Positions 2,410-45,931 of a DNA stretch of 64,000 nt are shown here, in pieces. The notes beneath the pieces were generated by a model, which was given only the letters and a program-made list of their open reading frames with translations, was not told the DNA's origin and did not search any database. Where the stretch lies: assembly GCA_011525365.1 (NCBI GenBank), contig WTGQ01000002.1:2195962-2259961 (forward strand). Reading direction: 5' to 3'. Position 1 is the first letter of the stretch. Each line of letters opens with the position of its first letter. The position numbers and the translations under genes are program-made. The DNA comes from Acidobacteriota bacterium. GTDB taxonomy: Bacteria > Acidobacteriota > Thermoanaerobaculia > Multivoradales > Multivoraceae.

Positions 2410-3645
2410 TCAGATGTTCTCGAAGGCCAGCGACTCGACCAGCCGCGGATCGCGGGACGGCACCAGCGAGCCACGGCTCAGAAGCCAGCCCGCGGTTGCC
2501 AGGAACACGCCGCCCACGCCGAGCAGCGAGGTCAGGTCGAGCAGGCTGAACGTCATCTCCCGGTGCAGGTTCGGCATGACCAGCCAGAACACGTCCCAGA
2601 GGTGCATGGCCAGCATCCAGAGGGCGCCGATCAGCAGCAACGCGCGATTGCGCTTGATCGTCCGGGGCATGAGGAAGAAGAACGGGACGGCGAAGTGGCC
2701 GATGGCCAGCAACATGGTCGCTGGACGCCAGGCAGCCGGATTGTCGGCCGTGCCGTCCAGCCGGCTCAGGAACCAGTTGGTCTCCTCCGGGATGTTCGCG
2801 TACCAGATCAGAAAGAACTGGCTGAAGGCGATGTACGCCCAGAACACGGTGAAGGCGAACAGCAGCTTGCCGAGATCGTGAAAGTGCTCGCCGGTGATCA
2901 CGCCGCGGAAGTGGCCCGACCGTTCGAACGCCAGAGTGAGGACGGTCAGAGCGGCGAACGCGGAGACGACCGTACCGGCGAAGAAGTAGACGCCGAACAT
3001 CGTCGAGTACCAGTGCGGCTCCAGCGACATCAGCCAGTCGAAGCCGGCGAACGTCAGCGTCACCGCGAACAGGGCGACGGCGGCGGGGCTGAATCGCGCC
3101 ATCCGGTGGGAGAGCGCCTCGTCTCCGTTGTCGTCCTGTCGCCGCGACGTGTTCCGGAAGTAGAGCGCCAGGCCACTCCAGACCACGAAGTAGATCACCG
3201 TCCGAATCCAGAAGCCGGTTTCGTTGAGCCACGGCTCCTTGACCTGGAGCAACCGGTCATGCGCCACCGCGTCGGCGTGGGTCCAGTGGAACAGGTCGTA
3301 CATGCCCAGGGCCACGACCGGAATGAACAGGACCGCCAGCACCGGCACCGTGCAGGCCAGGTTCTCGGCCAGACGGCGCACCACGACGCCCCAGCCGGCC
3401 TTCGTCGCGTGGTGAATCAGCACGAAGAACAGGCAGCCGAGACCGACGCAGAGGAAGAAGACGACGGCCACGAGCCAGGAGTGGAAGAACTGCTTCGTGC
3501 TCTCCGGGGAACTCCTCGCCAGCACGATCGACACGATCGTGAAGACGGCGCCGACCAGGCCCGCGATCAACGGCAGGCGCGCCCAGCCGCTGCCCGGCCG
3601 GATGACCAGTTGATCGAGATGAACGACGCGCGGTCCGTGGGCCAT
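2410..3645 (-). CDS. actF: alternative complex III subunit ActF (NrfD-like quinol oxidoreductase subunit)
   Basis: A 411-residue multi-pass membrane protein of the ActF family, the smaller integral-membrane partner of ActC in alternative complex III (quinol:electron carrier oxidoreductase). About ten hydrophobic segments run from residue 25 to the C-terminus, with family-like stretches such as FHSWLVA, SLEPHWYSTMFG and FWAYIAFSQFFLIWYANIPE. Its ATG shares one base with the TGA of ActD (TGATG), so the two are probably translationally coupled. In the actABCDEF order known from Rhodothermus, the monohaem cytochrome ActE lies between ActD and ActF; it is absent here. Confidence 0.92.
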   Translation of the reverse strand: MAHGPRVVHLDQLVIRPGSGWARLPLIAGLVGAVFTIVSIVLARSSPESTKQFFHSWLVAVVFFLCVGLGCLFFVLIHHATKAGWGVVVRRLAENLACTVPVLAVLFIPVVALGMYDLFHWTHADAVAHDRLLQVKEPWLNETGFWIRTVIYFVVWSGLALYFRNTSRRQDDNGDEALSHRMARFSPAAVALFAVTLTFAGFDWLMSLEPHWYSTMFGVYFFAGTVVSAFAALTVLTLAFERSGHFRGVITGEHFHDLGKLLFAFTVFWAYIAFSQFFLIWYANIPEETNWFLSRLDGTADNPAAWRPATMLLAIGHFAVPFFFLMPRTIKRNRALLLIGALWMLAMHLWDVFWLVMPNLHREMTFSLLDLTSLLGVGGVFLATAGWLLSRGSLVPSRDPRLVESLAFENI

Positions 3646-4274
3646 CAGGCGGCGCCTCCCCCTTCACCATCGTCCGCCGTATCGTCACCGCCGTCCGCAA
3701 AGTCGTCGATCGGCACGTGCTCCACCTCGACCGCCCCGAGCCCGCTCAGGAACTCCGCGGTGTCCCGGTCGTCGTACTTCGGATCCCAGGCCTCGATGGC
3801 GATGAACAGGCCGTCGTCCGTGACCCGCGCGAAGTTCTTCGACCGGAACAGCGGGTGGTGGTAGGTGGGCAACTTGTTGAAAGCGAACATCCCGAGCACC
3901 GCCCCCAGCGCCGCGCCGAGCACACCGAGCTCGAAGGTGACCGGCACGAAGGCGGGCCAGGTGAACAGCGGCTTGCCGCTGATGATCAGCGGGTAGCCCT
4001 TGATGTGGACCCAGCTCTGCAGGGCGAAGCCGAGCCCGGCGCCCGAAAGTCCCGTTGCCAGCACGAGGAACGGCAGCTTCGACGGCTTCAAGCCCATCGC
4101 CTTCTCGAGACCATGCACCGGAAACGGCGTCAGCGCGTCCCATTTCGAGTAGCCGGCGTCGCGAACCGCCTCGCAGGCCCGGTAGAGCGCCTTGGCGGTC
4201 TCGAACCGGGCCAGCACACCGTAGTGGCTGTAACCCGCCGACGCTTCCGGCACGTCCAGGGTCATCAAGCCCAT
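3645..4274 (-). CDS. actD: alternative complex III subunit ActD (DUF3341)
   Basis: A 209-residue DUF3341 protein, the ActD subunit of alternative complex III. An N-terminal soluble region includes GVLARFETAKALYRACEAVR. Two hydrophobic segments follow (about residues 68-90 and 105-130), then a soluble tail rich in acidic residues and glycine. Only one base separates the ActC stop from this ATG, and its own stop overlaps the ActF ATG, so C-D-F form a tight unit. A downstream in-frame ATG at 4265 (residue 4) is the only close alternative start. Confidence 0.9.
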   Translation of the reverse strand: MGLMTLDVPEASAGYSHYGVLARFETAKALYRACEAVRDAGYSKWDALTPFPVHGLEKAMGLKPSKLPFLVLATGLSGAGLGFALQSWVHIKGYPLIISGKPLFTWPAFVPVTFELGVLGAALGAVLGMFAFNKLPTYHHPLFRSKNFARVTDDGLFIAIEAWDPKYDDRDTAEFLSGLGAVEVEHVPIDDFADGGDDTADDGEGGGAA

Positions 4275-4275
4275 G

Positions 4276-5736
4276 TCAGGACCCTCCCCCGCCGGCCGGC
4301 GCCGCCTGCGGCGGAGGTTCCGCTCCGGAGCCGGCCGGCACTACGCGCACCAGTTCCTCGCCCTGGTGCGGATCGGCCTCCGGCAGCACGGTCTTGACCT
4401 CCGCCGTCGCCACCAGCGGCAGGAACCGGGCGAACAGGCAGAACATCGTGAAGAACAGGCCGAAGCTGCCGATCAGCGAAGCGAAGTCCCAGAAGGTCGC
4501 CTGGTAGTAGTCCCAGTTCGCGGGCAGGAAGTCTCGGTGCAGCGACGAGGTGACGATCACGAACCGCTCGAACCACATGCCGATGTTGATCAGGATCGAG
4601 GAGATGAACAGCCAGCCGATGTGGTTGCGCATCTTCTTGAACCAGAACAACTGGGGTGTCAGCACGTTGCAGCTCACCATGATCCAGTAGGCCCAGGCGT
4701 AGGGCCCGAGGGCCCGGTTGGCGAAGGCGAACTGCTCGTACGGGTTGCCGCTGTACCAGGCGATGAACATCTCGATGCCGTAGGCGTAGCCGACCATGCA
4801 CCCGGTCAGCAGCATGATCTTGGCCATGTTCTCGAGGTGGCGCATCGTGATGATGTCCTCCATCCTGAACACGACCCGGCAGATCAGCATCAGGGTCATG
4901 ACCATGGCGAAGCCGGAGAAGATGGCGCCGGCGACGAAGTATGGCGGGAAGATCGTCGTGTGCCATCCCGGCAACTGGGCGGTGGCGAAGTCCATCGACA
5001 CGACGGAGTGGACGGAGAGGACCAGCGGCGTCGCCAGCCCGGCCAGCATCAGGTAGGCCCGCTCGTAGTGGAGCCAGTTGCGGTGCGAGCCGCGCCAGCC
5101 CAGCGCGAAGATGCCGTAGGCGATCTGCTTGATCCGCGTCTTCGCGCGGTCGCGGATCGTCGCCAGGTCCGGGATCAGGCCTACGTACCAGAACATCAGG
5201 GACACCGTGCCGTAGATCGAGACCGCGAACACGTCCCAGATCAGCGGGCTGCGGAAGTTCGGCCACATGTCCATCTGGTTCGGCAGCGGGAACATCCAGT
5301 AGGCGACCCACACCCGGCCGACGTGGATGCCCGGGAAGACCAGGGCGCACATGACGGCGAAGATCGTCATCGCCTCCGCGGCGCGGTTGATCGACGTGCG
5401 CCACTTCTGCCGGAACAGGAACAGAATCGCAGAGATCAGCGTGCCGGCGTGGCCGATGCCGACCCAGAAGACGAAGTTGACGATCGCGAAGCCCCAGTTG
5501 ACCGGGTTGTTCAGGCCCCAGATGCCGGTGCCCTCCCAGAACAGCCAGGCGATCGAAACGCCGAACAGGCCCAGCATCGCCAGCGACGGCAGGAAGAAGA
5601 ACCACCAGCCGATCGGCGTCTTGCGCTCGACCGGCACGGCGACCGCTTCCGTCAGGGAACGGAAGTCGTAGCCGCCGACGATCAGCGGCGCACGCCCGGC
5701 GACGGGTTCCTGAGTGTTGTCCTGACTCTGTGCCAT
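4276..5736 (-). CDS. actC: alternative complex III subunit ActC (NrfD/HybB-like)
   Basis: A 486-residue polytopic quinol-oxidising subunit of the NrfD/PsrC family. It has about ten transmembrane helices and ActC-like stretches such as [38 protein letters not shown] and [15 protein letters not shown]. It is the first gene of the minus-strand cluster. Upstream of it lies a divergent gene, not ActB or ActA, so the multihaem and iron-sulfur/molybdopterin-like subunits are not encoded at the usual place. The C-terminal 50 residues are low-complexity Pro/Ala/Gly. It is probably transcribed from the promoter at 5797-5826. Confidence 0.94.
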
Positions 5737-26686: not shown

Positions 26687-28324
26687 CTACTTCTCCGTCA
26701 GCCCGAACACAAAGACGACGTTGCCCATCGCGACGACAATCCGCTGCTCGCCGCCGACGGCGTAGCTCATCGGCGAGGCGTGCGGCGCAGCGCCCAGGGA
26801 CATCCGCCACAACGGCTCGCCGGTCTCCTCGTCCAGCGCGAAGAAGTAGCCGTCGACGCTGGCGCTCCAGACCAGGCCGCCCGCGGTAGCGAGGACGCCG
26901 CTGCGCGTCCGCGGCGTGATCGGGAACTCCCACCGGATCTCACCCGTCGTCGCCTCGATGGCCCGGATGGCGCTCTTGTAGTGGTCCGCAGCAAGCGGCA
27001 TCCGGTGGCCGCCGCCCAGGAAGGTGCTTCCTTCCTCGTACTCGTCGTCCCGCTGGTAGTAGATCCCCTCGGCGTCGAAGGAGTTGACGTAGAGGAACCC
27101 GGTGCGCGGGCTGAAGGCCGGCGACCACCAGTTCGTCGCGCCGCCGGCGATCGGCGCGACGCGAGTACCCTCCGTCGTCGGATACACGTTCTCCCGCAGG
27201 ATCGGCCGGCCGTTCTCGTCGAGGCCATGGGCCCAGGTCTGGAGCGCGAACGGCTCACCGAGCAGGAACTGCCCGCTCTCCCGGTCCAGCAGGTAGTAGA
27301 AGGCGTTCCGATTGGCCCACAGCATCGTCTTGCGGAGTTCGCCGTTCAACTCGAGGTCGGCCAGCACCGGCACCTGGATCGCGTCCCAGTCCCAGGCGTC
27401 GTGGGGCGTGAACTGGAAGTGCCAGACGATCCTCCCGGTCTCGCGGTCGAGCGCCAGCACCGACGAGGAGTACAGGTTGTCGCCGAGCCGCAGGTCGCCG
27501 TTCCAGTCCGGCGCCGGATTGCCGGTCCCCCAGTAGATGAGGTCGAGTTCCGGGTCGTAGACACCGGTCAGCCAGGTCGGCGCGCCGCCGGTGCGCCAGG
27601 AGTCTCCGGCCCACGACTCGTTGCCCGGCTCCCCGGGGCCCGGCACCGTGTACGTTCGCCACCTGAGTTCGCCGGTCGCGGTATCGTAGCCGTCGATGAA
27701 GCCGCGGATGCCGAACTCTCCGCCGGCGATCCCCGTGACCACGGTGTCGCCGACCACGAGCGGCGCCGCCGTCTTGCTGTAGCCCTTCGTGTGGTCCGCC
27801 AGTTCGGTCTCCCAGAGCAGCGAACCGGAACGGGCGTCGATCGCCACCAGGTGGGCGTCGTTCGTGCTCATGTACAGCGTCTCGCCGAGAATCGCCACGC
27901 CGCGGTTGTTGCGCCCGCAGCACAACCGGATGCCGTCCGGCAGCGGGTGCTCGTAGCGCCAGTAGGCCCGCCCCGTGGCGGCATCGACAGCGGTCACGTT
28001 GCTCGGCGACTCCGTGATGAACATGACGCCGTCGACCACCAGAGGCGTCGTCTGGTTCCGGTCGAGCTGCCGGATCTGGTGCGCCCACTTCAACTCCAGG
28101 CGTCCCACGTTCTCCCGGTTGATCTGGTCGAGCCGGCTGAATCGCTGTCCGTGCAGGGCCCCGTGGTACATGAGCCAGCTGTGCGGCTCGTCGTCGGAGT
28201 TGAGGAGACGTTCCCAGGTCACCGGCGACAGCAACGGCATACCGTCGCCCGGCGCGTCCTGGGCCGGCGCCACCTGCGCGACGAGCACGAGCAGCACCGC
28301 GACGCTCCACCCGAGCGGTCTCAC
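26687..28324 (-). CDS. PQQ-dependent alcohol dehydrogenase with lanthanide-type motif
   Basis: A 545-residue periplasmic quinoprotein of the methanol/alcohol dehydrogenase propeller family. The signal peptide is about residues 1-22. The adjacent cysteines typical of these enzymes are C135-C136, followed by NRG. The metal ligands known from the family appear as Glu203 in GGEFG, Asn269 in GTGNP, and the catalytic Asp312 in HDAWDWD. Asp314, two residues on, matches the extra Asp of lanthanide-dependent XoxF/ExaF-type enzymes; calcium enzymes have another residue there. GTG at 28324 overlaps the upstream cytochrome stop (GTGA). Electrons probably go to that cytochrome. The substrate is not predictable. 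Confidence 0.88.
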   Translation of the reverse strand: MRPLGWSVAVLLVLVAQVAPAQDAPGDGMPLLSPVTWERLLNSDDEPHSWLMYHGALHGQRFSRLDQINRENVGRLELKWAHQIRQLDRNQTTPLVVDGVMFITESPSNVTAVDAATGRAYWRYEHPLPDGIRLCCGRNNRGVAILGETLYMSTNDAHLVAIDARSGSLLWETELADHTKGYSKTAAPLVVGDTVVTGIAGGEFGIRGFIDGYDTATGELRWRTYTVPGPGEPGNESWAGDSWRTGGAPTWLTGVYDPELDLIYWGTGNPAPDWNGDLRLGDNLYSSSVLALDRETGRIVWHFQFTPHDAWDWDAIQVPVLADLELNGELRKTMLWANRNAFYYLLDRESGQFLLGEPFALQTWAHGLDENGRPILRENVYPTTEGTRVAPIAGGATNWWSPAFSPRTGFLYVNSFDAEGIYYQRDDEYEEGSTFLGGGHRMPLAADHYKSAIRAIEATTGEIRWEFPITPRTRSGVLATAGGLVWSASVDGYFFALDEETGEPLWRMSLGAAPHASPMSYAVGGEQRIVVAMGNVVFVFGLTEK

Positions 28325-29176
28325 GAATCGCTCCCCCGCAACGAGGCGAGATAGGCGACCAGATCGTCGCGCTCCACGTCCGTTAGGACTTCGGCAGGCA
28401 TCGTCGACTTCTCGATCCGCTCGACCGAGCGAATCCTGGCCCTCGCAAAAGACCGCAGCCTCTCCTCGCCATCCATGATTCGCAGGTTGAACGTGTCCTC
28501 GCCCATCCGAAGCCCCTCGACCACCGTGCCGTCGGCGCGGGTGATCCGTACCGTCCACCAACGGGGCGACACCGCGGCATCCGGCGTGGTGACGTCCTCC
28601 GCCAGCTCGTCCGGATCGCGGCGCTCGCCCACCCGCGACAGGTCCGGCCCGAGCCGGCCTCCCTGACCCCGCACCATGTGGCAACGCCCGCAGTCCAGCC
28701 GCTCGAACACCGCCCGGCCCGCCTCCATCGAACCCGGCAGAGACGCGGGGTCGACGGCTCCGGAGAGCGTGCGCAGATAGGTCACCAACTGCCAGATCTC
28801 CTGGTCCTTTGCGCGCCGCAGGCCGCGCATCGATGTGCCCTCAATGCCATCCCGTATCACCCGAAAGAGCCCCGCATCCGTCGTCGAATGCCGGAAACTC
28901 CCCATCGTCAGATCGGGCCCGTCCGCCTCCTCCCCCCCCAGTGGCGTCCACCCCATGGCAGCTCGTGCACTTCGACTGGAACTGCCGTTGCCCCATCCGC
29001 ACGTCGATCCCGCTGGTGTAGGGATTCTCCGGTTCCTCAGCGGCCGCACCCGTCCCGAGCCCCAGGAGAACCAGCACCGCGATCGACCCGCGCGCCCGAC
29101 GCCATCCAGCCGGTCCGGGGGCCTGAGGGGAGGGTCCCAGCGGACTCGAAGCGAGCGACGCGCTACGTCTACTCAT
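28321..29176 (-). pseudogene. dihaem cytochrome c, frameshifted at a G8 tract
   Basis: Two reading frames together encode one protein of about 285 residues. The first (from ATG 29176) has a signal-like segment and CTSCHG; the second has CGRCHM followed by GGRLGPDL and a C-terminal part like the planctomycete/verrucomicrobial haem-binding domain. They join at eight consecutive G on the coding strand (28932-28939). With seven G the frame reads through as ATGGEEADGPDLTMG. The cause may be assembly error, a real mutation or phase variation. The first 30 codons are encoded by the inverted-repeat element at 29110-29283, so the original N-terminus may have been replaced. First gene before the PQQ dehydrogenase. 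Confidence 0.8.
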
Positions 29177-35377: not shown

Positions 35378-36643
35378 GTGACGACCGCCGACTCACTCGC
35401 CGAACCCGCCGCCCCGCCCGGGGCGGCGCCCGTCCGCAGCGGCGAGCGCATCGCGGCGCTCGACGTCCTGCGCGGCTTCGCCGTGCTCGGCATCCTGGCG
35501 ATGAACGTGCAGAGCTACTCGATGATCGAGGCGGCGTATCTGAACCCGGCCGCCAACGACTGGGGGGTCGGCGCCGGCTACTGGGCCTGGCTCGGCGCGC
35601 ACGTGTTCTTCGACATGAAGTTCATCTCCATCTTCTCCGCCCTGTTCGGCGCCGGAATGGCGCTGATGGCCGAGCGGGCCGCCGCCCGCGGCGCTTCGGC
35701 GACAGGCGTTCACTATCGCCGGCAGTTCTGGCTGCTGCTCATCGGCCTCGCTCACGCTCACCTGATCTGGTACGGCGACATCCTGGTGCCCTACGCGTTG
35801 TGCGGCTTCCTGCTCTACAGCCTGCGCAACCTGAGCCCGACGAAGCTGCTGATCGGCGGCTTCGCGATGACCGCCGTGCCGGCGGCGTTCTTTCTGCTGA
35901 CCGGCCTGTCGATACCCTTCATTCCGGCGGAAGATCAAGCCCAGTTCGCCGGCGACTGGGCGCCGGCGGCGGCCGCCATCGAGGCCGAGACCGCCACCTA
36001 CCGCGGAAGCTGGCTCACCCAGCTTCCGCACCGGAGCGCCACGGCCCTGGGCGCGGAGATTTTCGTCTTCCTCGTGCTGTTCTTCTGGCGCAGCGGCGGC
36101 CTGATGCTCGTGGGCATGGGCCTCTACAAGCTCGGCGTGTTCTCCGCCCGCCGCTCGCCGACGTTCTACCGGCGCCTCCTGGCCGGGAGCTTCGGCGTGG
36201 GCCTGCCGATCGTCATCCTCGGCGTCGTGTTCAACACGCGGCACGGCTTCGCCTTCGAGCACTCCATGTTCCAGGGGATGGTCTTCAACCTCGTCGGAGC
36301 GACGATCGTCTTTCTCGGCTACGTCGCGCTCGTCATGCTGGCCGTTCTTCACGGCTGGCTGCCCGGCCTGCAGCGCCGGCTCCAGGCGGCCGGCCGGATG
36401 GCGCTGTCGAACTACATCAGCCAGAGCGTCATCTGCACGCTCATCTTCTACGGCCATGGCCTTGGCCAGTTCGAGCAGGTGAGCCGCCTGGGCCAGTTCG
36501 GCATCGTCGTCGCGATCTGGGCGCTGCAGTTGGCGTGGTCGCCGTGGTGGCTCGCCCGGTTCCGCTTCGGGCCGCTGGAGTGGCTGTGGCGTTCCCTCAC
36601 CTACATGAAGTTTCAGCCCATGGCGGTCCGCTCACCCGCCTGA
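35378..36643 (+). CDS. DUF418-domain membrane protein
   Basis: A 421-residue polytopic protein of the DUF418/YeiB-like group, with about ten helices. It starts RIAALDVLRGFAVLGILAMN, the usual N-terminal signature, and ends with the DUF418 region containing AGRMALSNYISQSVICTLIF and WLWRSLTYMK. Members are thought to be acyltransferase- or transporter-like, but the function is unknown. GTG at 35378 lies 16 bp after the hydrolase stop. Confidence 0.87.
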   Translation: MTTADSLAEPAAPPGAAPVRSGERIAALDVLRGFAVLGILAMNVQSYSMIEAAYLNPAANDWGVGAGYWAWLGAHVFFDMKFISIFSALFGAGMALMAERAAARGASATGVHYRRQFWLLLIGLAHAHLIWYGDILVPYALCGFLLYSLRNLSPTKLLIGGFAMTAVPAAFFLLTGLSIPFIPAEDQAQFAGDWAPAAAAIEAETATYRGSWLTQLPHRSATALGAEIFVFLVLFFWRSGGLMLVGMGLYKLGVFSARRSPTFYRRLLAGSFGVGLPIVILGVVFNTRHGFAFEHSMFQGMVFNLVGATIVFLGYVALVMLAVLHGWLPGLQRRLQAAGRMALSNYISQSVICTLIFYGHGLGQFEQVSRLGQFGIVVAIWALQLAWSPWWLARFRFGPLEWLWRSLTYMKFQPMAVRSPA

Positions 36644-36668
36644 CGTCCCACCAGAGAGGAGACCTGTC

Positions 36669-37169
36669 ATGATCCGACCCCTTTTCGCCGCTACGTTCAT
36701 CTCCTTCACCGTGGCCGCGCTGGCCGCTGGAGGCGCCATGGCCCAGATCGCACCCGAACCCGAACAGATCCAGGAACTCCTCGAGGGGCCGGCCGAGGGG
36801 CCGGTCGTCATGGTCAACCTGCTGCGGTTCAAGAAGGAGGCCGACGCCCCCGACGAGGGCCTCACGGGCGAAGAGGCCTACGGGAAGTACGGCGCCCAGA
36901 TGGTCCAGTGGGTGACCTCGCAGGGCGCCCGGCTGATCTGGTCCGGCCGGGTCGACTCGATGGTGATCGGCGATACGGACGAGTACTTCCACACGGTCGC
37001 CCTGATGGAGTACCCCTCGCGGGCCGAGTTCCTGCGCATCATCGGCGATCCGCGGGTCGCCGAGTTCTCGATCCACCGCACGGCGGGGCTCGAGATGCAG
37101 TGGCTGATCGCGACAACGACGACGGCCGAACTCGCCCAGGCCACAGCGAACGAGGACTCGGACGACTGA
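36669..37169 (+). CDS. exported DUF1330-like protein
   Basis: A 166-residue protein with a signal peptide (about 1-25, cleaved after GAMA). The mature domain looks like the dimeric alpha/beta barrel of DUF1330 proteins: VVMVNLLRFKKEA, YGKYGAQMVQWV and FHTVALMEYPSRAEFLRI. DUF1330 proteins are usually cytoplasmic, so export is notable. A GAGAGGAGACC ribosome binding site precedes the ATG. Function unknown. Confidence 0.8.
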   Translation: MIRPLFAATFISFTVAALAAGGAMAQIAPEPEQIQELLEGPAEGPVVMVNLLRFKKEADAPDEGLTGEEAYGKYGAQMVQWVTSQGARLIWSGRVDSMVIGDTDEYFHTVALMEYPSRAEFLRIIGDPRVAEFSIHRTAGLEMQWLIATTTTAELAQATANEDSDD

Positions 37170-37240
37170 GCTACACTCGCGCGGCTCAAACCACCGCAGC
37201 TACCACCACCGATTCCCCTGAGGTGAAGGAGATCCCGGAT

Positions 37241-37774
37241 ATGCGTTCGAAGAACCTGGCGGCGATTCTGACGGCCGCCATTGTCCTCGCGGCCTGCACA
37301 GCGATCGCCGTGTCGCCCGCCACAGCCTCCGAGCACGAGGAGCCGGTCGGCAACCTGGCCGAACTGATGCGCGCCATCCTGTTCCCGAACTCGAACTTCC
37401 TCTTCGACGTCCAGACGACGGATCCCGGTACCCCGCCCGAGCCGGGCAGCGAGGACGACCGCTCCGCGTCGGCCCTCTTCTCCGGCATTTACACCGGCTG
37501 GCAAGTACCGCAGCAGGCGGCGCTGGCGCTGGCCGAGGTCGAGCCGCTGATCATGAACGCCGACCGCAAGTGCGAGAACGGACGCGACGCTCCGGTCGCC
37601 AACGAGGACTACCAGAAGTGGGCCAGGCAGTTGACCGAGGTCGCCAGGCAGATCTACGCCGCGGCGCACGAGGAGGATCAAGAGAAGGTGAGCGACCTGA
37701 CGAACAACCTCGCTGGCGCCTGCGAGGACTGTCACGCGGTCTACCGCAAGTACCAGGACCGCTGCCGCCGGTAA
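37241..37774 (+). CDS. periplasmic cytochrome c'-like protein
   Basis: A 177-residue exported protein with a predicted four-helix bundle and one haem-binding site close to the C-terminus, CEDCHAVYRKYQDRCRR. This late CxxCH is typical of cytochrome c' and c-556. The signal peptide (about 1-30) contains a Cys that could be a lipobox (LAACTA). AAGGAG precedes ATG 37241; the longer open frame upstream is a shadow of the DUF1330-like gene. It opens the quinoprotein part of the operon and may carry electrons or bind gas ligands. Confidence 0.85.
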   Translation: MRSKNLAAILTAAIVLAACTAIAVSPATASEHEEPVGNLAELMRAILFPNSNFLFDVQTTDPGTPPEPGSEDDRSASALFSGIYTGWQVPQQAALALAEVEPLIMNADRKCENGRDAPVANEDYQKWARQLTEVARQIYAAAHEEDQEKVSDLTNNLAGACEDCHAVYRKYQDRCRR

Positions 37775-37833
37775 CGTGACCCGGCGCCGGACAGCCTCCA
37801 TCGCGCCGGCTGCCGGACAGACACTCGAATCTC

Positions 37834-38358
37834 ATGCGTAGCCTCTTCGAGTGGGTCGATGCGCTGCCCAGCAGCATCGCGCTGCGGGAGTCGCTGAACG
37901 CGTACCCGACCATGCTGACGATCCACGTCGTCAGCATGTGCCTGTTCGCCGGTCTGATCGCCTTCTGGGACATGCGTCTGATCGGGCTGACGCTCAGGAA
38001 GGTGCCGGTGTCGAACATCCCGACCCGCCTCTTCCCGTGGGCGCTGACCGGCTACGGCGTCAACCTGATCACCGGGGCATTACTGCTCTATAGCCAGCCG
38101 ATGCGCTACTACGGCAACTTCTACTTCTGGGCCAAGATGGCGCTGATGCTGGTCGCCGGCATCAACATGTTCTGGTTCCACTACGCGACCTACAAGTCGG
38201 TCCAGGCGTGGGACCAGGGCCGGGAGATCCCGTTGAACGCGCGGCTCGCCGGCGTCGTGTCCCTGGTGTTGTGGGCGGCCGTCGTCGTTACAGGACGGAT
38301 GATGGCCTACAGCGGCCTGATGCCCGGCTGGTGGAACAACCTGAACATCGGCGCCTGA
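37834..38358 (+). CDS. small polytopic membrane protein (DUF6644-like), copy 1
   Basis: A 174-residue protein with four to five transmembrane helices. It shares a layout with the next gene: an FEW opening, a helix with His (LTIHVVSM / QCAHLVAL), a WDMRLIG / VDMRLLG loop, and an FWAKM / FWWKM helix. The conserved histidines could bind b-type haem, but this is not shown. Its position between a cytochrome c' and quinoproteins suggests a membrane electron-transfer role, by inference. Confidence 0.72.
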   Translation: MRSLFEWVDALPSSIALRESLNAYPTMLTIHVVSMCLFAGLIAFWDMRLIGLTLRKVPVSNIPTRLFPWALTGYGVNLITGALLLYSQPMRYYGNFYFWAKMALMLVAGINMFWFHYATYKSVQAWDQGREIPLNARLAGVVSLVLWAAVVVTGRMMAYSGLMPGWWNNLNIGA

Positions 38359-38382
38359 AGAGGCCGCGGAGGAAACGTCCAC

Positions 38383-38856
38383 ATGTTGCAGTCCTTCTTC
38401 GAGTGGATGCAGGGCCTGCCCTTCAGCGCCTGGATGCTGGAGGAGACCTGGGCGTCGCCGATCATCCAGTGCGCTCACCTGGTGGCGCTGGTCGGCTTCG
38501 CCGGGGCCGTCCTGGTCGTCGACATGCGCCTGCTCGGTCGCGGCCTGATCAAGACGCCTCTCAACCAGCTCGCCCGCGAGCTGGACCGGTGGATGATCTG
38601 GAGCTTCGTCGCCCTGTTCGTGACCGGCGCGCCCCAGGTCCTGTCGACGGCGCTCAAGCAGTACTACAGCCCCTTCTTCTGGTGGAAGATGCAGATCATC
38701 GTCATCGGGCTGCTCTTCAACTTCACGATCCGCCGCCGGGTCGCCTTCGCGAAAGAAGGAACGCTCGGACACTGGCCGAAGGTGGTCGGCTTCCTCTCGA
38801 TCGGCATCTGGACCAGCGTTTCGGTCTACGCCCGCCTGATCGGGCTGCTGTCCTGA
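38383..38856 (+). CDS. small polytopic membrane protein (DUF6644-like), copy 2
   Basis: A 157-residue paralog of the preceding protein with the same helix plan and conserved AHLVALVGFAG, VDMRLLGRGL and FFWWKMQIIV stretches. A GAGGAAACG ribosome binding site precedes the ATG. Its TGA overlaps a CTG that is probably the start of the broken quinoprotein gene (CTGA). Two tandem copies may form a heterodimer. Function unknown. Confidence 0.72.
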   Translation: MLQSFFEWMQGLPFSAWMLEETWASPIIQCAHLVALVGFAGAVLVVDMRLLGRGLIKTPLNQLARELDRWMIWSFVALFVTGAPQVLSTALKQYYSPFFWWKMQIIVIGLLFNFTIRRRVAFAKEGTLGHWPKVVGFLSIGIWTSVSVYARLIGLLS

Positions 38857-40690
38857 GTACCCGATACCGCCTCGCCGTGGCTGTGGCAGCGCTCGCCGCC
38901 TCGCTCGCGAGCCCACCGCTCACGGCTCAGACCGGAGCCTCCGGTGACTGGCCGGCCTCCGGCGGCGATCCCGGCAACACGAAGTACTCCACCCTCGACC
39001 AGATCGACCGCGACAACTTCCAGGACGTCGCGGTCGCCTGGCGCTGGCGCTCGATCGCCGCCGACACCGACGTGCCGAGCAGCGTCCGGCGAACGAGGGA
39101 TTCCAGCACCGGGGAGTCGCCTACTGGACGGACGGAGAGCGGGAGCGGATCCTCCTTCCAACCCATCACCGCCGGCTGGTCTCGCTCGACGCCGGAACCG
39201 GAGAGCCCGATCCCGACTTCGGCGACCGCGGCGCGGTCGAGATGACGCCCCATCTCGGCCGGAAGGTGATGGAGAGCCAGACGACCCACAGCTCGCCGCC
39301 AGCGGTCTGTGGCAACACGGCGATCGTCGGTTCGATCGTGGCCGACGGCGTCATGCACAAGGAGTCGCCGCCCGGCTTCGTCCGCGCCTACGACATCCCG
39401 ACCGGCGACCTCGCCTGGGTCTTCCACACGATTCCGCAGGGCGACGAGTTCGGCACGGAAACCTGGGAGACCGAGTCCTGGCGCTACAGCGGCAACACGA
39501 ACGTCTGGTCGACGATCGCCGTCGACGAAGAAACCGGTACCGCCTATCTGCCGGTCAGCACGGCGACGAACGACCTGTACGGCGGCCATCGGCTCGGCGA
39601 CAATCTGTACTCGGAGAGCATCGTGGCGGTCGACTGCCAAACCGGTGAACGCCGGTGGCACTACCAGTTCGTCCACCACGGCCTCTGGGACTTCGATCCG
39701 TCCACTGCCCCGAACCTGTTCGAGGCGACGGTCGATGGCCGGGCGATCAAGGGCGTGGTCCAGGTGACGAAGCAGGCCTTTGCCTTCGTCTTCGACCGGA
39801 CGACCGGCGAGCCCGTGTGGGAGATCGAGGAACGGGAGGTGCCGCCGAGCGACGTGCCCGGCGAGCGCGCGGCGCCCACTCAGCCCTTCCCCACGAAACC
39901 GGCGCCCTACGACCGGCAGGGCATCACCGAGGACGACCTGATCGACCTGACGCCGGAACTCCGCGCCGAGGCGCTCGATATCGTCAGCGACTACGACCTC
40001 GTGCCGCTGTGCACGCCGCCGCGGGTCAAGGGCGAGGGCAAACCGACGCTCCAGTTGCCCTCCGAGGGAGGCGGAACGAACTGGACCGGAGCCGCGCTCG
40101 ACCCGGAGAGCGGCGTGCTCTACGTCCCTTCCTACACCCTGCCGGTCACCGTCTCCCTGACCAGGCCCGACCCGAACCGCTCCAACCTGAACTTCGTTCC
40201 CGACCGCTGGTACGAGAGTGTCGACGGGCCGCGGGGCCTGCCCCTGGTCAAGCCGCCGTACGGACGGATCACGGCGATCGACCTGAACACCGGCGAACAC
40301 CTGTGGATGGTCCCGCACGGAACAGGGCCCGTGAACCATCCGGCGATCGCCCACCTCGAACTCGGCCGGCTGGGCAAGGTCAACCACCAGCCCGGGGCCC
40401 TGGTCACGGCGACGCTGCTTTTCGTCACCGCGTCCGGAGAACACTCCGGCGACCCGGAAGCGGACGAGCCCGACATACCGCCGGAGATCAGCGTCTACGA
40501 CAAGGAAACGGGCGAGTACCTGGGCGGCATCGAACTGCCGGACACGCCGCACTCGAACCTGATCAGCTACGAACACGGCGGCCGGCAGTACCTCGCCGTC
40601 GCCACCGGCGGCGGCCGGTACTACGGCGGCGGCGGCACGCTGCCGGTACTCGTCGCCCTGGCGCTGCCCCGAGAGGAATCCGGATCATGA
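38853..40690 (+). pseudogene. PQQ-type quinoprotein, broken by a ~145-nt deletion
   Basis: First of two tandem paralogs. Signal peptide and propeller start (ASGDWPASGGDPGNTKYST) match copy 2, then at about 39085-39092 some 145 nt are missing relative to 40903-41055 of copy 2, and the frame shifts. Downstream the original frame resumes (RGVAYWTDGERERILLP) without a start until ATG 39242. That ATG overlaps the TGA that ends the shifted frame (39243-39245), so a 482-residue C-terminal fragment could still be made. CTG at 38853 or GTG at 38877 would be the start. The lost region covers the first blade, so the product is probably inactive. Confidence 0.85.
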
Positions 40691-42663
40691 AGTTCGTCGC
40701 CCTGGTGGCCTCCGCCTGCGCGTTCGCCGGCCCGCCCGTCACAGCCCAGGCGGGCACCACCGGCGACTGGCCGGCTTTCGGCGGGGATCCTGGCAACAGC
40801 AAGTACTCGACGCTCGACGAGATCGACCGCTCCAACTTCCAGGATGTCGAGGTCGTCTGGCGCTGGCGCTCGATCGCCGCGGACACCGAAGTCCCGAGCA
40901 GCGTGCGACGCGGCCAGTTCAAGGCGATTCCACTCGAGGTCGGCGGCCGGGTCTTCGTCTCTACTTCGCTCAGCCAGGTCGCCGCGATCGACGCCGGGAG
41001 CGGCCGGACGCTCTGGTCCTACGATCCGGAAAGCTGGCGCGCCGGCCGGCCGGCGAACCTCGGCTTCCATCACCGCGGAGTCGCCTGGTGGACAGACGGC
41101 GAGCGCGAACGGATCCTGATTCCCACCCACGACCGCCGCCTCGTGTCCCTCGACGCCCGGACCGGTGCACCCGATCCCGGGTTCGGCGACAGCGGCGCGG
41201 TCGAGATGACGCCGCACCTGGGTCGCGAGGTGATGGAGCGCCTGACGACGCACAGTTCGCCGCCGGCAGTCTGCGGCAACACCGTGATCGTGGGCTCGAT
41301 CGTGGCGGACTTCGCTACTCACAAGGAAGCGCCGCCCGGCTTCGTCCGCGCGTATGACATCCCGACCGGCGAACTCGCCTGGGTCTTCCACACCATCCCG
41401 CAGAACGACGAACTCGGCGTCGAAACCTGGGAGGACGAGTCGTGGCGCTACAGCGGTAACACGAACGTCTGGTCCATGATCACGGTCGACGAGGAGGCGG
41501 GAACCGCCTACCTGCCGGTCGGCACGCCGACGAACGATCTCTACGGCGGCCACCGGCTCGGTGACAATCTCTACGCCGAGAGCATCGTCGCGGTCGACTG
41601 CGAGACGGGCCAGCGCCAGTGGCACTACCAGTTCGTCCACCACGGCCTCTGGGACTACGACCCCCCGACCGCGCCCAACCTGTTCGAGGCGACGGTGGAG
41701 GGCGAGCGCGTGCGCGGCGTGGTCCAGGTCACGAAGCAGGCCTTCGCCTTCGTGTTCGACCGGGTGACCGGCAAGCCGCTGTGGGAGATCGAGGAAAGAG
41801 AGGTGACGCCGAGCGACGTGCCGGGCGAGCGTGCCGCGCCGACCCAGCCCTTCCCCACCAGGCCGGCGCCCTTCGACCGCCAGGGCATCACCGAGGACGA
41901 CCTGATCGACTGGACGCCCGAGCTCCGCGCCGAGGCGATCGAGATCGCGGCCGACTACGACCTGGTGCCGCTCTACACGCCGCCGCGCTTCGAGGAGTCG
42001 GGCAAGCCGACGATCCAGTTGCCGGCCGACGGCGGCGGTGCGAACTGGACCGGCGCCGCGGTCGATCCCGAATCCGGGATCCTCTACGTCGTCTCGCATA
42101 CCCGTGCGGCCAGCGTCTCCCTGACCAGGCCGGATCCGAACCGCTCCGACCTGAACTTCGTGCCGGATCGTTGGTACGCGACGGTCGAAGGGCCCCGCGG
42201 GCTGCCCCTGGTCAAGCCGCCGTACGGCCGGATCACCGCCATCGACCTCTCCACTGGCGACCACCTGTGGATGGTCCCCCACGGCCGGGGCCCGGTGAAC
42301 CACCCCGCTATCGCCCATCTGGAACTCGGCCGGCTCGGCCAGGCCAACCACACTGCGGCGCCCCTCGTCACGCCCACCCTGCTCTTCGTCACGGCCTCCC
42401 GGGAACACTCCGGCGATCCCGAGTCCGACGAACCCGACGTGCCACCGGAGATCAGCGTCTACGACAAGAAGACCGGCGAGTACCTCGGCGGAATCGAGCT
42501 ACCGGACACCCCGAACTCGAACCTCATCACCTACGAACACGAAGGTCGGCAGTACCTGGCCGTCGCCACCGGCGGCGGCCGCTTCGGCATCGGCGGCGGC
42601 GGCACGCCCCCCGAACTCGTCGCGCTCGCCCTGCCTGCCGCCCTGAAGGAACCGACGTCATGA
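40687..42663 (+). CDS. PQQ-dependent quinoprotein dehydrogenase, glucose dehydrogenase-like
   Basis: A 658-residue periplasmic propeller protein, the intact partner of the preceding pseudogene. Signal peptide about 1-20. The family resembles the PQQ domain of membrane glucose/quinate dehydrogenases: THSSPPAVCGNTVIVGS, YQFVHHGLWDYDPPTAPNLF with the presumed catalytic Asp, and PPYGRITAIDLSTGDHLW. It lacks the adjacent-cysteine motif of alcohol dehydrogenases and the N-terminal membrane helices of E. coli-type Gcd. ATG overlaps the upstream stop and its own stop overlaps the next ATG. Probably oxidises a sugar or cyclic alcohol. Confidence 0.9.
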   Translation: MKFVALVASACAFAGPPVTAQAGTTGDWPAFGGDPGNSKYSTLDEIDRSNFQDVEVVWRWRSIAADTEVPSSVRRGQFKAIPLEVGGRVFVSTSLSQVAAIDAGSGRTLWSYDPESWRAGRPANLGFHHRGVAWWTDGERERILIPTHDRRLVSLDARTGAPDPGFGDSGAVEMTPHLGREVMERLTTHSSPPAVCGNTVIVGSIVADFATHKEAPPGFVRAYDIPTGELAWVFHTIPQNDELGVETWEDESWRYSGNTNVWSMITVDEEAGTAYLPVGTPTNDLYGGHRLGDNLYAESIVAVDCETGQRQWHYQFVHHGLWDYDPPTAPNLFEATVEGERVRGVVQVTKQAFAFVFDRVTGKPLWEIEEREVTPSDVPGERAAPTQPFPTRPAPFDRQGITEDDLIDWTPELRAEAIEIAADYDLVPLYTPPRFEESGKPTIQLPADGGGANWTGAAVDPESGILYVVSHTRAASVSLTRPDPNRSDLNFVPDRWYATVEGPRGLPLVKPPYGRITAIDLSTGDHLWMVPHGRGPVNHPAIAHLELGRLGQANHTAAPLVTPTLLFVTASREHSGDPESDEPDVPPEISVYDKKTGEYLGGIELPDTPNSNLITYEHEGRQYLAVATGGGRFGIGGGGTPPELVALALPAALKEPTS

Positions 42664-44807
42664 AGATCCACACTCCGATCGCCGCGCTCGTTGCATTGCT
42701 CCTGGCCAGTGCCGCGGCCGCCCAACCCCCACCCCGCCGGGCGGAGGCCGCCTACGCAGTCGACGATGCCGCCCTGATCGGCGCCGCCGGCCGCACCGGC
42801 GACTGGCTGACCTACGGCGGCACCTACAAGGAGCAGCGCTACAGCGTCCTGGACCAGATCAACGACGGCAACGTCGACCAGCTCGGCATCGCCTGGGTCC
42901 AGGAGACGAACACGAAGCGCGGCCTCGAGGCCACTCCGCTGATCGTCGACGGCGTGATGTACGCGACCGGCGCCTGGAACGTCATCTACGCCCTCGACGC
43001 GGTGACCGGCGAACCGCTGTGGACGTACGACCCGGAGGTGCCGCGCTCCATCGCGATGAAGACCTGCTGCGACGCGGTCAACCGCGGCGCCGCCCTGTAC
43101 CGCGGCAAGGTGATCTCCGCCACGCTCGACGGCCGTCTGATCGCCATCGACGCCGAGACCGGAGAACTCGCCTGGTCGACGATGACCGTGCCCGAGGACT
43201 CGATGTACACGATCACCGGCGCGCCCCGGATCGCCAAGGGCAAGGTGATCATCGGCAACAGCGGCGCCGAGTACGGCGTGCGCGGCTACGTCGACGCCTA
43301 CGACGCGGAGACCGGCGAGCGCGCCTGGCGCTTCTACACCGTGCCGGGCAACCCGGCCGACGGCTTCGAGAACGAGGCGATGCGGATGGCCGCCGAGACC
43401 TGGACCGGCGAGTGGTGGACCGGAGGCGGCGGAGGCACGGTGTGGGATTCCATCGTCTACGACCCGGAACTCGACCTGCTCTACATCGGCGTCGGCAACG
43501 GCGCGCCCTGGGACCGCAACCTGCGCAGCCCCGGCGGCGGCGACAACCTGTTCCTGTCGTCCATCGTCGCGCTCCGCCCCGATACCGGCGAGTACGTCTG
43601 GCACTACCAGACGACGCCCGGCGACACCTGGGACTACACCGCCACCCAGCCGATCATGCTCGCCGAGCTGCCGATCGGCCGCCGGGTGCGCCAGGTCCTG
43701 ATGCAGGCGCCGAAGAACGGCTTCTTCTACGTCCTCGACCGCCGCACCGGCGAGCTGATCTCGGCCGAGGAGTTCGTCACCGTGACCTGGGCCAGCCACG
43801 TCGATCTGGCCAGCGGCCGGCCGGTCGAGCTCGCGGGAGCGCGCTACACCGACCAGACCGTCAACGTAATGCCGGGGCCGCTCGGCGGCCACAACTGGCA
43901 CCCGATGGCCTTCAGCCCAATGACCGGCCTCGTCTACATCCCGGCGATGGAGATGGGGAACTTCTACGTCCCGGATCCCAACTACGAGTACACCCCGGGG
44001 CAGTGGAACCTGGGAGTGCGCGCGGCGTCTCCCGAGGACATTCCGCAGGCGATCGTCGACGCCACCGGCCTCTCGGGCCAGATGCTGGCCGAGGACGCGC
44101 CGCCGGCCCTGCTCTCGGGCCATCTACTGGCCTGGGATCCGGTCGCGCAGCGCGAAATCTGGCGGGCCCAGTACACGATGCCGTGGTCCGGCGGCGTGCT
44201 GGCCACCGCCGGCAACCTCGTCTTCCAGGGCACGCCCTTCGGCCAGTTGACCGCGTACCGCGCCGACGACGGCGAGAAGCTCTGGGAGAGCTACACCGGC
44301 AGCGGCGTCATCGCGCCGCCGATCACCTTCGAGAGCGGCGGCACCCAGTACATCGCGGTCATGTCCGGCTGGGGCGGCGCCTTCGGCATCGTCGGCAGCC
44401 GCTCGGCCCGGCAGGCGGTCGAATCCGAGGGCCGGATCGTCGTCTACGCCCTCGGCGCCACCGGCCGGCCGATCGAGCGGCAGGAGCGCCGCGAGATCCG
44501 CGTCACCCGGGTCGATCACGGCGCCTCGACCGAAGACATCGACGCCGGGCGCCGGCTGTTCAACCAGTACTGCCTCGTCTGCCACGGCTACGGCGCCGTC
44601 TCCGGCGGCGTCACGCCGGACCTCCGCCAGTCGTCCCAGCGGGTCTTCGACTCCTACGAAGCGGCCCTGCTCGAAGGCGCCCTCGTCGACCTCGGCATGC
44701 CCAGCTTCGCCCCCGTCCTCGACCGTGACGACGTCGCCCTGATCAAGGCCTACGTGCTCCACCGCCGCAACATGCTCGCCGACGAACAGAGCTCCCAGGT
44801 GCCGTGA
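42660..44807 (+). CDS. quinohaemoprotein alcohol dehydrogenase (PQQ plus cytochrome c)
   Basis: A 715-residue type II quinohaemoprotein. Signal peptide about 1-21. Adjacent cysteines C136-C137 with DAVNRG, catalytic W324-D325-Y326-T327 (TTPGDTWDYTATQP), and a C-terminal cytochrome c domain with CLVCHG from about C638. Thr at the position after the catalytic Asp-Tyr suggests a calcium rather than lanthanide enzyme. Oxidises alcohols in the periplasm and passes electrons internally to haem. Start and stop overlap neighbours (ATGA, GTGA). Confidence 0.93.
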   Translation: MKIHTPIAALVALLLASAAAAQPPPRRAEAAYAVDDAALIGAAGRTGDWLTYGGTYKEQRYSVLDQINDGNVDQLGIAWVQETNTKRGLEATPLIVDGVMYATGAWNVIYALDAVTGEPLWTYDPEVPRSIAMKTCCDAVNRGAALYRGKVISATLDGRLIAIDAETGELAWSTMTVPEDSMYTITGAPRIAKGKVIIGNSGAEYGVRGYVDAYDAETGERAWRFYTVPGNPADGFENEAMRMAAETWTGEWWTGGGGGTVWDSIVYDPELDLLYIGVGNGAPWDRNLRSPGGGDNLFLSSIVALRPDTGEYVWHYQTTPGDTWDYTATQPIMLAELPIGRRVRQVLMQAPKNGFFYVLDRRTGELISAEEFVTVTWASHVDLASGRPVELAGARYTDQTVNVMPGPLGGHNWHPMAFSPMTGLVYIPAMEMGNFYVPDPNYEYTPGQWNLGVRAASPEDIPQAIVDATGLSGQMLAEDAPPALLSGHLLAWDPVAQREIWRAQYTMPWSGGVLATAGNLVFQGTPFGQLTAYRADDGEKLWESYTGSGVIAPPITFESGGTQYIAVMSGWGGAFGIVGSRSARQAVESEGRIVVYALGATGRPIERQERREIRVTRVDHGASTEDIDAGRRLFNQYCLVCHGYGAVSGGVTPDLRQSSQRVFDSYEAALLEGALVDLGMPSFAPVLDRDDVALIKAYVLHRRNMLADEQSSQVP

Positions 44808-45247
44808 TCGAGGCCTGGCGGCGGTACCTGCTGTACGTCCTGCTCTTCGGGGCGGTCGGTCTGCTGGCGGAGCTGTATCTGCTGGACCACTACGAGGACT
44901 GGAGGCAGTGGATCCCGCTGGTGCTCATCGTCGCCGGTACGGCCGCGGGGGTGTGGCTCGCGGTGCGTCCGTCCCGCATTGCGGTCCGGATCTTCCAGAT
45001 CCTGCTGGCGGCGTACGTGCCCGCTGGACTGCTGGGCGTCTACTTCCACTTCCAGTCCAACGTCGAGTTCGAGCAGGAGCTCCACCCGAACTCCCGCGGG
45101 CTCGAGCTCGTCACGGAGAGCCTTGGCGGCGCCATGCCGACACTGGCGCCGGGGACGATGATCCTGCTCGGGTTGCTCGGTATACTCATCGCCCTCCAGC
45201 ACCCGGCCGCCGGCGGCGGCACCGCTGTTTCGTCGTCGAACGACTGA
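44804..45247 (+). CDS. small membrane protein, unknown function
   Basis: A 147-residue protein with about four transmembrane helices: LLYVLLFGAVGLLAELYLLD, WIPLVLIVAGTAAGVWLAV, IFQILLAAYVPAGLLGVYFH, and one near TMILLGLLGILIAL. I do not recognise a family. GTG overlaps the quinohaemoprotein stop (GTGA), so translation is coupled. It could anchor or supply electrons for the quinoproteins. Confidence 0.7.
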   Translation: MIEAWRRYLLYVLLFGAVGLLAELYLLDHYEDWRQWIPLVLIVAGTAAGVWLAVRPSRIAVRIFQILLAAYVPAGLLGVYFHFQSNVEFEQELHPNSRGLELVTESLGGAMPTLAPGTMILLGLLGILIALQHPAAGGGTAVSSSND

Positions 45248-45298
45248 CCCACGGTCCCCGCCGGCCCGACACCTGCCACCTGGAACTGAGGATCCTCG

Positions 45299-45931
45299 AT
45301 GAATCGACACACACTAATGTGGACCACTACAGTCCTGTTCCTCCTCACCATCCCGGCCGCAGCCCAGGTCGGCGCCAACAACGGCCTCCTCAACCCCAAC
45401 CTTGCCAGCGAGGATGAACTGGCGGCAGTCGACGGGCTCGACGCGGACGCAGTGGCCGCCATCCTGGACGGTCGGCCGTTTCTGCGCGCCTCGGATCTGC
45501 ATGCAATCGTTTCAGCTCATGTCGCCGAAGATCAGTACGACGCCATCTACGGCGCTCTCTGGGTCCCCATCGACCTGAACGACGCGACCTCCGAGGAAAT
45601 CGGGCTCATCCCCGGCGTCGGCCGGCGGATGACCCACGAGTTCGAGGAGTACCGCCCCTACACCGCGCTGGCCCAGTTCCACCGGGAGATCGGCAAGTAC
45701 GTCGACGACGACGAAGTGGAGCGACTCGCCCAGTACGTCTACGTCCGCATCGACCTGAACACCGCCTCCGGCGAGGACATCCTGAGCATCCCCGGCGTCG
45801 GCCGCCGCATGCGGCACGAGTTCGAGGAGTACCGCCCGTACGAGGCGATGTCCCAGTTCCGCCGCGAGATCGGCAAGTACGTCGACGACGACGAAGTCGA
45901 GCGACTGGCCCGCTACGTCGAGATTCGGTAA
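45299..45931 (+). CDS. exported protein with three 60-residue helix-hairpin-helix units
   Basis: A 210-residue protein: signal peptide (about 1-23), then three consecutive 60-residue units (31-90, 91-150, 151-210). Units 2 and 3 are nearly identical and contain IPGVGRRMxHEFEEYRPY, a helix-hairpin-helix core as in ComEA-type proteins, followed by IGKYVDDDEVERLAxYV. Unit 1 is degenerate. ComEA uses such motifs to bind DNA in the periplasm; here a DNA role is unproven and the motif may serve protein contacts. A GAGGA at about 45288 precedes the ATG. Last gene of the long plus-strand run. Confidence 0.8.
   Translation: MNRHTLMWTTTVLFLLTIPAAAQVGANNGLLNPNLASEDELAAVDGLDADAVAAILDGRPFLRASDLHAIVSAHVAEDQYDAIYGALWVPIDLNDATSEEIGLIPGVGRRMTHEFEEYRPYTALAQFHREIGKYVDDDEVERLAQYVYVRIDLNTASGEDILSIPGVGRRMRHEFEEYRPYEAMSQFRREIGKYVDDDEVERLARYVEIR
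45389..45928 (+). repeat. three tandem 180-bp units inside the HhH gene
   Basis: Units at 45389-45568, 45569-45748 and 45749-45928 each encode 60 residues. The second and third are very similar at DNA level (for example, both contain CACGAGTTCGAGGAGTACCG), pointing to recent duplication; the first is diverged. Confidence 0.85.

Follow-up and report, generated by a model that had tools for sequence, protein, structure and literature searches.

A class II cytochrome and paired DUF6644 membrane proteins: a conserved gene core predicted to include a known respiratory fold divided between two chains

Gene content of the locus

The locus considered here lies in a window of 64,000 nucleotides (the whole stretch of DNA that was analysed) from an Acidobacteriota bacterium of the family Multivoraceae (assembly GCA_011525365.1, contig WTGQ01000002.1, positions 2,195,962 to 2,259,961). 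Eight reading frames occupy positions 37241-45931, all on the + strand and several with start/stop overlap; genes are on the + strand throughout 36669-45931. This run had been described, in an original prediction made from the letters of the sequence, as one colinear operon. The gene run was recovered as such, but the widely conserved unit is smaller than had been noted: it consists of a class II cytochrome c gene and two genes for membrane proteins of the family DUF6644 (PF20349), hereafter subunits A and B, which are predicted to form, as two chains, a fold known from respiratory enzymes. Ten proteins encoded in 35378-45931 were scanned with Pfam (curated cut-offs of 26.5 bits for PF01322 and 27 bits for PF20349). 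All the genes previously named were found in place on the + strand, with Pfam families that agree.

The cytochrome gene (37241-37774) passes the PF01322 cut-off with 27.8 bits, of which only the C-terminal part is aligned (73-121 of 121), and its CxxCH motif stands near the C-terminus, as had been noticed. A profile built from 36 relatives, compared with solved structures, matched cytochromes c' best (E 4e-6) and cytochrome c-556 at E 0.02. The CxxCH motif is kept in 67 of 67 rows (36/36 after removal of near-duplicates) and an N-terminal methionine, residue 43 of the window protein, in 35/36. The likeness to the c'/c-556 class thus lies in the C-terminal CxxCH and the profile match. Because the N-terminal methionine is conserved, the sequence suggests a six-coordinate His/Met electron carrier of the c-556 type, which would set it apart from the gas-binding cytochromes c'. 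The genes of A (37834-38358, 44.5 bits for PF20349) and B (38383-38856, 63.9 bits) follow, each coding for four transmembrane helices; both are in one reading frame with a single TGA between them.

Three genes of quinoprotein type come next. The first (q1, 38853-40690, with PF01011 on 39242-40690) and the second (q2, 40687-42663, PF01011 at 591.8 bits) resemble glucose dehydrogenase and share 83% DNA identity over most of their length. The first had been called broken and the second intact, and this holds: a stretch of 145 bp present in the second (40905-41049) is missing from the first, where the junction lies at window 39085/39086, and the loss shifts the frame. Two relatives in the genus (L062 and L064) carry two q2-like copies at the position of the pseudogene, and one relative is near full length at both. 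The intact q2 has in common with membrane glucose dehydrogenase (TIGR03074) the pyrroloquinoline quinone (PQQ) propeller, but lacks its N-terminal membrane anchor: the match begins at model position 150 and reaches 363 bits, under the cut-off of 832.65. The third (q3, 42660-44807) is, as proposed, a quinohaemoprotein resembling alcohol dehydrogenases, with PF01011, a TIGR03075 score of 648 bits against a cut-off of 480, and a C-terminal cytochrome c domain (PF13442 at 626-699). Elsewhere in the window another PQQ-propeller match lies at 26687-28684 on the - strand, and PF01011 matches 59 times in the 4.22 Mb assembly, where several matches are fragments of a single protein.

The run ends with a small membrane protein (m3, 44804-45247), which has no Pfam family over the cut-off, and an exported helix-hairpin-helix (HhH) repeat protein (45299-45931, PF12836 at 49.8 bits); both vary within the genus. 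On the 5' side of the cytochrome lies a gene for a DUF1330-like secreted protein (36669-37169), whose PF07045 score of 21.5 bits is under the cut-off of 23. The tight packing that had been pointed out is most visible at q2, q3 and m3, whose start codons overlap the stop of the gene before. Promoter and terminator scans of the locus gave little above shuffled sequence.

Conservation of the core across genomes

Species genomes were scanned with the alignment of A; 100 relatives were confirmed and 80 kept, 17 of them in the genus of the window and 63 outside. The relatives are metagenome-assembled genomes, and their titles may be mistaken (that of one distant relative reads Bifidobacterium breve); the titles cover Acidobacteriota, Gemmatimonadota, Alpha-, Gamma- (including SAR86) and Deltaproteobacteria, and one cyanobacterial bin. 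Within the genus, where A is 91-98% identical to that of the window, the cytochrome, A and B are present in 17/17 loci. Outside it, B lies directly 3' of A in 60/63 loci, and the remaining three end at a contig edge. The core order is therefore kept well beyond close relatives, and the original prediction is not refuted on this count. A related cytochrome was found within 2.5 kb in 38 of the 45 loci that could be tested on both sides, immediately upstream on the same strand in 25 and on the opposite strand in 7. A gene of the family DUF6152 was present within 6 kb in 27 of the 32 loci with 6 kb on both sides. As a control we took the 22 loci with 9 kb on each side: the cytochrome was near in 19/22 and far (6-8.5 kb) in 1/22, DUF6152 near in 20/22 and far in 0/22. 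Three other genera of the same family have the A-B tandem with an adjoining gene for a late-CxxCH cytochrome; no gene related to the quinoproteins turned up in the stretches that were read.

The quinoproteins are distributed differently. In the genus they directly follow B in 16/17 loci, the other locus ending just past B. Genes of the q2 type occur in 15/17 genus loci (L074 is without one, L063 is at a contig end) and q3 in 13/17 (L075 and L076 are without it, L063 and L069 are at contig ends), so that quinoproteins are usual in the genus yet individually dispensable. By comparison m3 is found in 8/17 loci, the HhH protein at full length in 8/17 and as a fragment in one more, and the DUF1330-like protein in 16/17, the remaining locus (L069) being cut by the contig end. 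Outside the genus, 15/63 loci have a quinoprotein and 48/63 have none at all, which goes against a unit defined by quinoproteins. In 14 of those 15 the best match is a cytochrome-PQQ fusion type, distinct from the types of the window, and L085 matches q2. In the 22 control loci a quinoprotein was near (within 4 kb) in 4 and far (6-9 kb) in none. Quinoproteins are thus a repeated but optional attachment to the module, and what unifies the loci is the core of class II cytochrome c, A and B. Recurrence with non-orthologous enzymes in different lineages would be expected if the module can serve quinoproteins without being defined by them.

Among close relatives DUF6644 is limited to the family of the window (24/118 genomes, 4/61 genera), and 21 of the 24 DUF6644-bearing genomes have three or four copies. 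The assembly of the window itself contains a second pair (G000:C1:3148360-3149274; L057, 10328-11377), which adjoins a DUF885 protein; no relative of the cytochrome was found in the 20-kb stretch searched around it. Four DUF6152 genes (L141-L144) are present in the genome of the window, none of them near the module; in most other lineages DUF6152 lies close to the module. The family has invariant HH, NPH and H positions.

Conserved residues and kinship of the two subunits

To describe the subunits we used 48 A, 45 B and 36 cytochrome rows, after removal of near-duplicates and of some hand-picked rows; conservation was counted on 80 rows for A, on 76 of 77 for B and on 67 of 68 for the cytochrome, short pieces being dropped. 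A and B are homologous (profile probability 99.9%), and all 48 A and 45 B members match DUF6644 at E<=1. In A, His31 in helix 1 and His116 at the end of helix 3 are invariant (80/80), together with Lys101, Asp46, Arg48, Trp126 and Arg155. B keeps His32, Lys92 and Lys102 in every row (76/76), and Arg151 in nearly all. The prediction of paired paralogous membrane proteins with conserved histidines is borne out across the family, with the qualification that the pair is not equivalent: A has two invariant histidines and B one. Judged by the charge of the loops, loop 1 of both subunits and loop 3 of B face the cytoplasm; loop 3 of A is neutral on average. In this orientation the periplasmic side would hold His31, Lys101 and Arg155 in A, with His32, Lys102 and Arg151 in B, and His116 would lie on the cytoplasmic side.

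Sequence gives few leads to known families. Against solved structures the best match of A had an E-value of 0.49, and B had no match. The family UPF0093/HemJ (PF03653) is matched at E<=1 by 18/48 A members (best 7.7e-5), while A of the window has no such match; CopD is matched at the same threshold by 7/48. HemJ is rare in the phylum of the window (5/60 genomes, none over the cut-off), and HemJ sequences were for this reason taken from the order of a Caulobacteraceae locus. In the comparison of trimmed alignments with this one-order sample, His31, Lys101 and His116 of A align with the conserved His, Lys and His of HemJ at E 0.015, compared with 0.46-0.5 for reversed decoys, with a profile probability of 3%.

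Further arrangements of the family were seen in named isolates. Sinorhizobium meliloti Ak57 (L235, 5615-6480) and Azospirillum ramasamyi (L236, 5612-6498) each have an overlapping unit made of DUF6152 and a single DUF6644/DUF2214-like membrane gene, with no cytochrome adjoining. On a plasmid of Novosphingobium humi (L237, 2499-6992), a pair of DUF6644 genes occurs with DUF6152 and with the gene of a small CxxCH protein; this protein resembles a class II cytochrome and is annotated as hypothetical.

Predicted structure of the A-B pair

The AlphaFold2 model of A alone is of good quality (pLDDT 94, pTM 0.85) and found no match with Foldseek at E<=0.001. The pair was modelled as a read-through single chain from 46 rows (45 relatives), 11 of which are true A-B pairs. 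The model has a pLDDT of 90.8 and a pTM of 0.87, with nine linker residues below 50, and on these values the relative position of the two halves is predicted with confidence. Compared with solved structures, it retrieved CydA of bd oxidase (PF01654) at ranks 1-10, with Z 18.4-20.5 over 267-275 residues at 3.5-4.0 A (the top Z of 20.5 being over 269 residues). Further matches were ActC/ActF of alternative complex III (Z 15.8-16.8) and PsrC (13.6); since helical models may reach Z of about 13 to 14 with no true relative, CydA and ActC stand above this level and PsrC at its limit. After these first 16 rows Z falls to 8.8 and then to 5.8. Foldseek also placed bd oxidases first, with weak E-values (0.03 and up). 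A and B are therefore predicted to adopt, as two chains, the duplicated four-helix-bundle architecture of CydA, ActC and PsrC.

The pair also differs from these proteins. CydA, whose haem ligands in Escherichia coli numbering are His19, His186 and Met393, is one chain of 377-503 residues, and the A-B pair two chains of about 330 in total. The fold is shared with the NrfD/PsrC/ActC family (PF03916) at Z 13.6-16.8, but there the architecture is not split in two chains, and the neighbour of A-B is a monohaem class II cytochrome instead of an iron-sulfur protein.

Proposed function and alternatives

Duarte et al. 2018 (PMC6303296) state that known members of the CydA/NrfD-type fold react with quinone at the periplasmic side. 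The A-B model fits this periplasmic quinone-reactive fold and the commonest neighbours are a cytochrome c and DUF6152; for these reasons we propose, at about even weight, that A, B and the cytochrome make up a membrane redox module in which a split duplicated four-helix bundle moves electrons between quinone and the class II cytochrome, which the quinoproteins would share. The invariant histidines of both subunits and the UPF0093/HemJ and CopD matches among A members are counted in its favour as well. The three-gene core, usually with DUF6152 nearby, would work as follows. The four helices of A and the four of B would pair into one eight-helix unit acting at the periplasmic face. There a quinone, probably with a haem b, would sit among the conserved His, Lys and Arg residues and would exchange electrons with the cytochrome, while protons would come from, or go to, the cytoplasmic side. 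Since a dehydrogenase is missing from most loci, electron flow from quinol to cytochrome is favoured slightly. In the window, the quinoproteins encoded by the three genes behind the module would carry out periplasmic oxidation of sugars or alcohols and use the same cytochrome.

Several observations weigh against this proposal. In the same paper, NrfD-family proteins are said always to act with an iron-sulfur subunit, and no iron-sulfur family was found among the ten proteins scanned in 35378-45931. The GRQPW quinol-loop signature, present in the CydA consensus built here (26 of 30 loci kept), is absent from A and B. Alignment with hhalign of A, B and A+B to the 26 CydA gave E 0.069-0.13 over 14 columns with a probability below 2% (decoys 0.14-0.38), and to 30 NrfD E 0.033-0.083, again below 2% (decoys 0.21-0.67). 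As neither comparison shows significant homology, common descent with CydA or NrfD is not claimed; the CydA and NrfD profiles likewise show no significant homology to each other. Matches of helical bundles may also arise by chance, and a single-chain model forces the halves close together. With VIA-align, A alone retrieved generic helical bundles (Z<=10.3), a lone four-helix bundle being uninformative; the haem proteins among these matches (a designed two-haem bundle, bd oxidase and cytochrome b561) were not used as evidence. In seven of the 45 loci that could be tested, a related cytochrome is missing from the 2.5 kb on either side, although three of these loci (L118, L119 and L124) have a longer CxxCH protein on the other strand within 3.5 kb. 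As the single-gene units of Sinorhizobium and Azospirillum show, the wider family includes members that have no partner and no adjoining cytochrome.

The original prediction saw here a periplasmic oxidation unit with its own membrane electron entry. A redox-type pair with conserved histidines, tied to a cytochrome, is indeed present, with quinoproteins behind it in nearly all genus loci and quinohaemoproteins near it in 15/63 others; a unit defined by quinoproteins does not stand, since 48/63 loci lack one and single quinoproteins are missing in some genus genomes. An operon centred on the quinoproteins, in which A-B would be the entry of the dehydrogenases' electrons into the quinone pool, is hence in our judgement unlikely, even though q2 has no anchor of its own, the order behind B is so regular in the genus and the association with quinoproteins recurs at short distance elsewhere. 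Individual quinoproteins are gained or missing within the genus, and electron transfer from PQQ to menaquinone would be uphill, which we also count against it.

Two further alternatives concern the membrane pair itself. A and B might form a metal transport or handling pair of the CopD/HupE kind, with DUF6152 as periplasmic metal binder and the cytochrome as reductant. The CopD matches of some A members and the invariant HH, NPH and H of DUF6152 speak for this, as do the DUF6152-DUF6644 units that occur with no adjoining cytochrome and a neighbour cluster in 7/63 loci, of which the one member checked is HupE/UreJ by Pfam. That clustering is noisy (antisense frames cluster too); it only pointed to HupE and to the quinohaemoproteins, the latter then being tested separately. 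We consider a metal role quite improbable, as the fold matches of the whole pair are respiratory quinone proteins and a class II cytochrome is the neighbour in most testable loci. HemJ, a four-helix membrane protein, reportedly binds a b-type haem, and a HemJ-like A-B oxidase would use haem b in the membrane to oxidise a particular substrate, with the cytochrome and not quinone as electron acceptor. The UPF0093 matches of A members and the His, Lys, His register, better than in reversed decoys, are what this idea has in its favour; to our knowledge HemJ does not occur as an A-B pair. With a very low profile probability, a HemJ sample from one order, no match for A of the window and no second histidine in B, it is the most doubtful of these explanations.

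Relation to described systems

A more specific form of the proposed quinone-cytochrome module is put forward tentatively, as rather less likely than not: the DUF6644 pair and its class II cytochrome would represent a quinone:cytochrome c oxidoreductase family not described so far, an unfused two-subunit duplicated bundle with no iron-sulfur or multihaem partners, passing electrons directly to a monohaem cytochrome and forming a minimal electrogenic unit over several phyla. On this reading the two-chain pair may be similar to what existed prior to the fusion from which CydA and NrfD arose. The original prediction had found no described pathway to which the locus could be matched, and we found none in print either: DUF6644 and DUF6152 had no mention in the open-access literature searched, subscription papers being mostly outside this scope, and the open-access literature held nothing on point about quinoproteins, Multivorans or Thermoanaerobaculia in a sponge context. 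The cytochrome-DUF6644-DUF6644 module is thus apparently widespread and undescribed.

If the proposal is correct, Acidobacteriota, Gemmatimonadota and several classes of proteobacteria, with SAR86 among them, have a respiratory membrane module that two "unknown function" labels have kept from notice. The module would in addition offer a small system in which to test an idea proposed in PMC6303296: that a duplicated four-helix bundle alone makes up an electrogenic unit, with protons moving from the cytoplasmic side to an active site at the periplasmic face. Named isolates carry such modules: in Novosphingobium humi the two membrane genes have DUF6152 and a class II-like cytochrome near them, and in Sinorhizobium meliloti there is the simpler DUF6152-DUF6644 unit.

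Two further observations concern relatives of this fold in the same assembly. A partial CydA match (G000:C1:1642581-1643330, - strand) of 88.8 bits covers the first 237 positions; the open frame around it has 1007 codons and may encode a fusion protein of CydA-like type. In the window, about 32 kb from the DUF6644 pair, genes of alternative complex III are found on the - strand: ActD (3645-4274) and an NrfD-family protein (4276-5736), the latter a genuine representative of the fold predicted for the DUF6644 pair.

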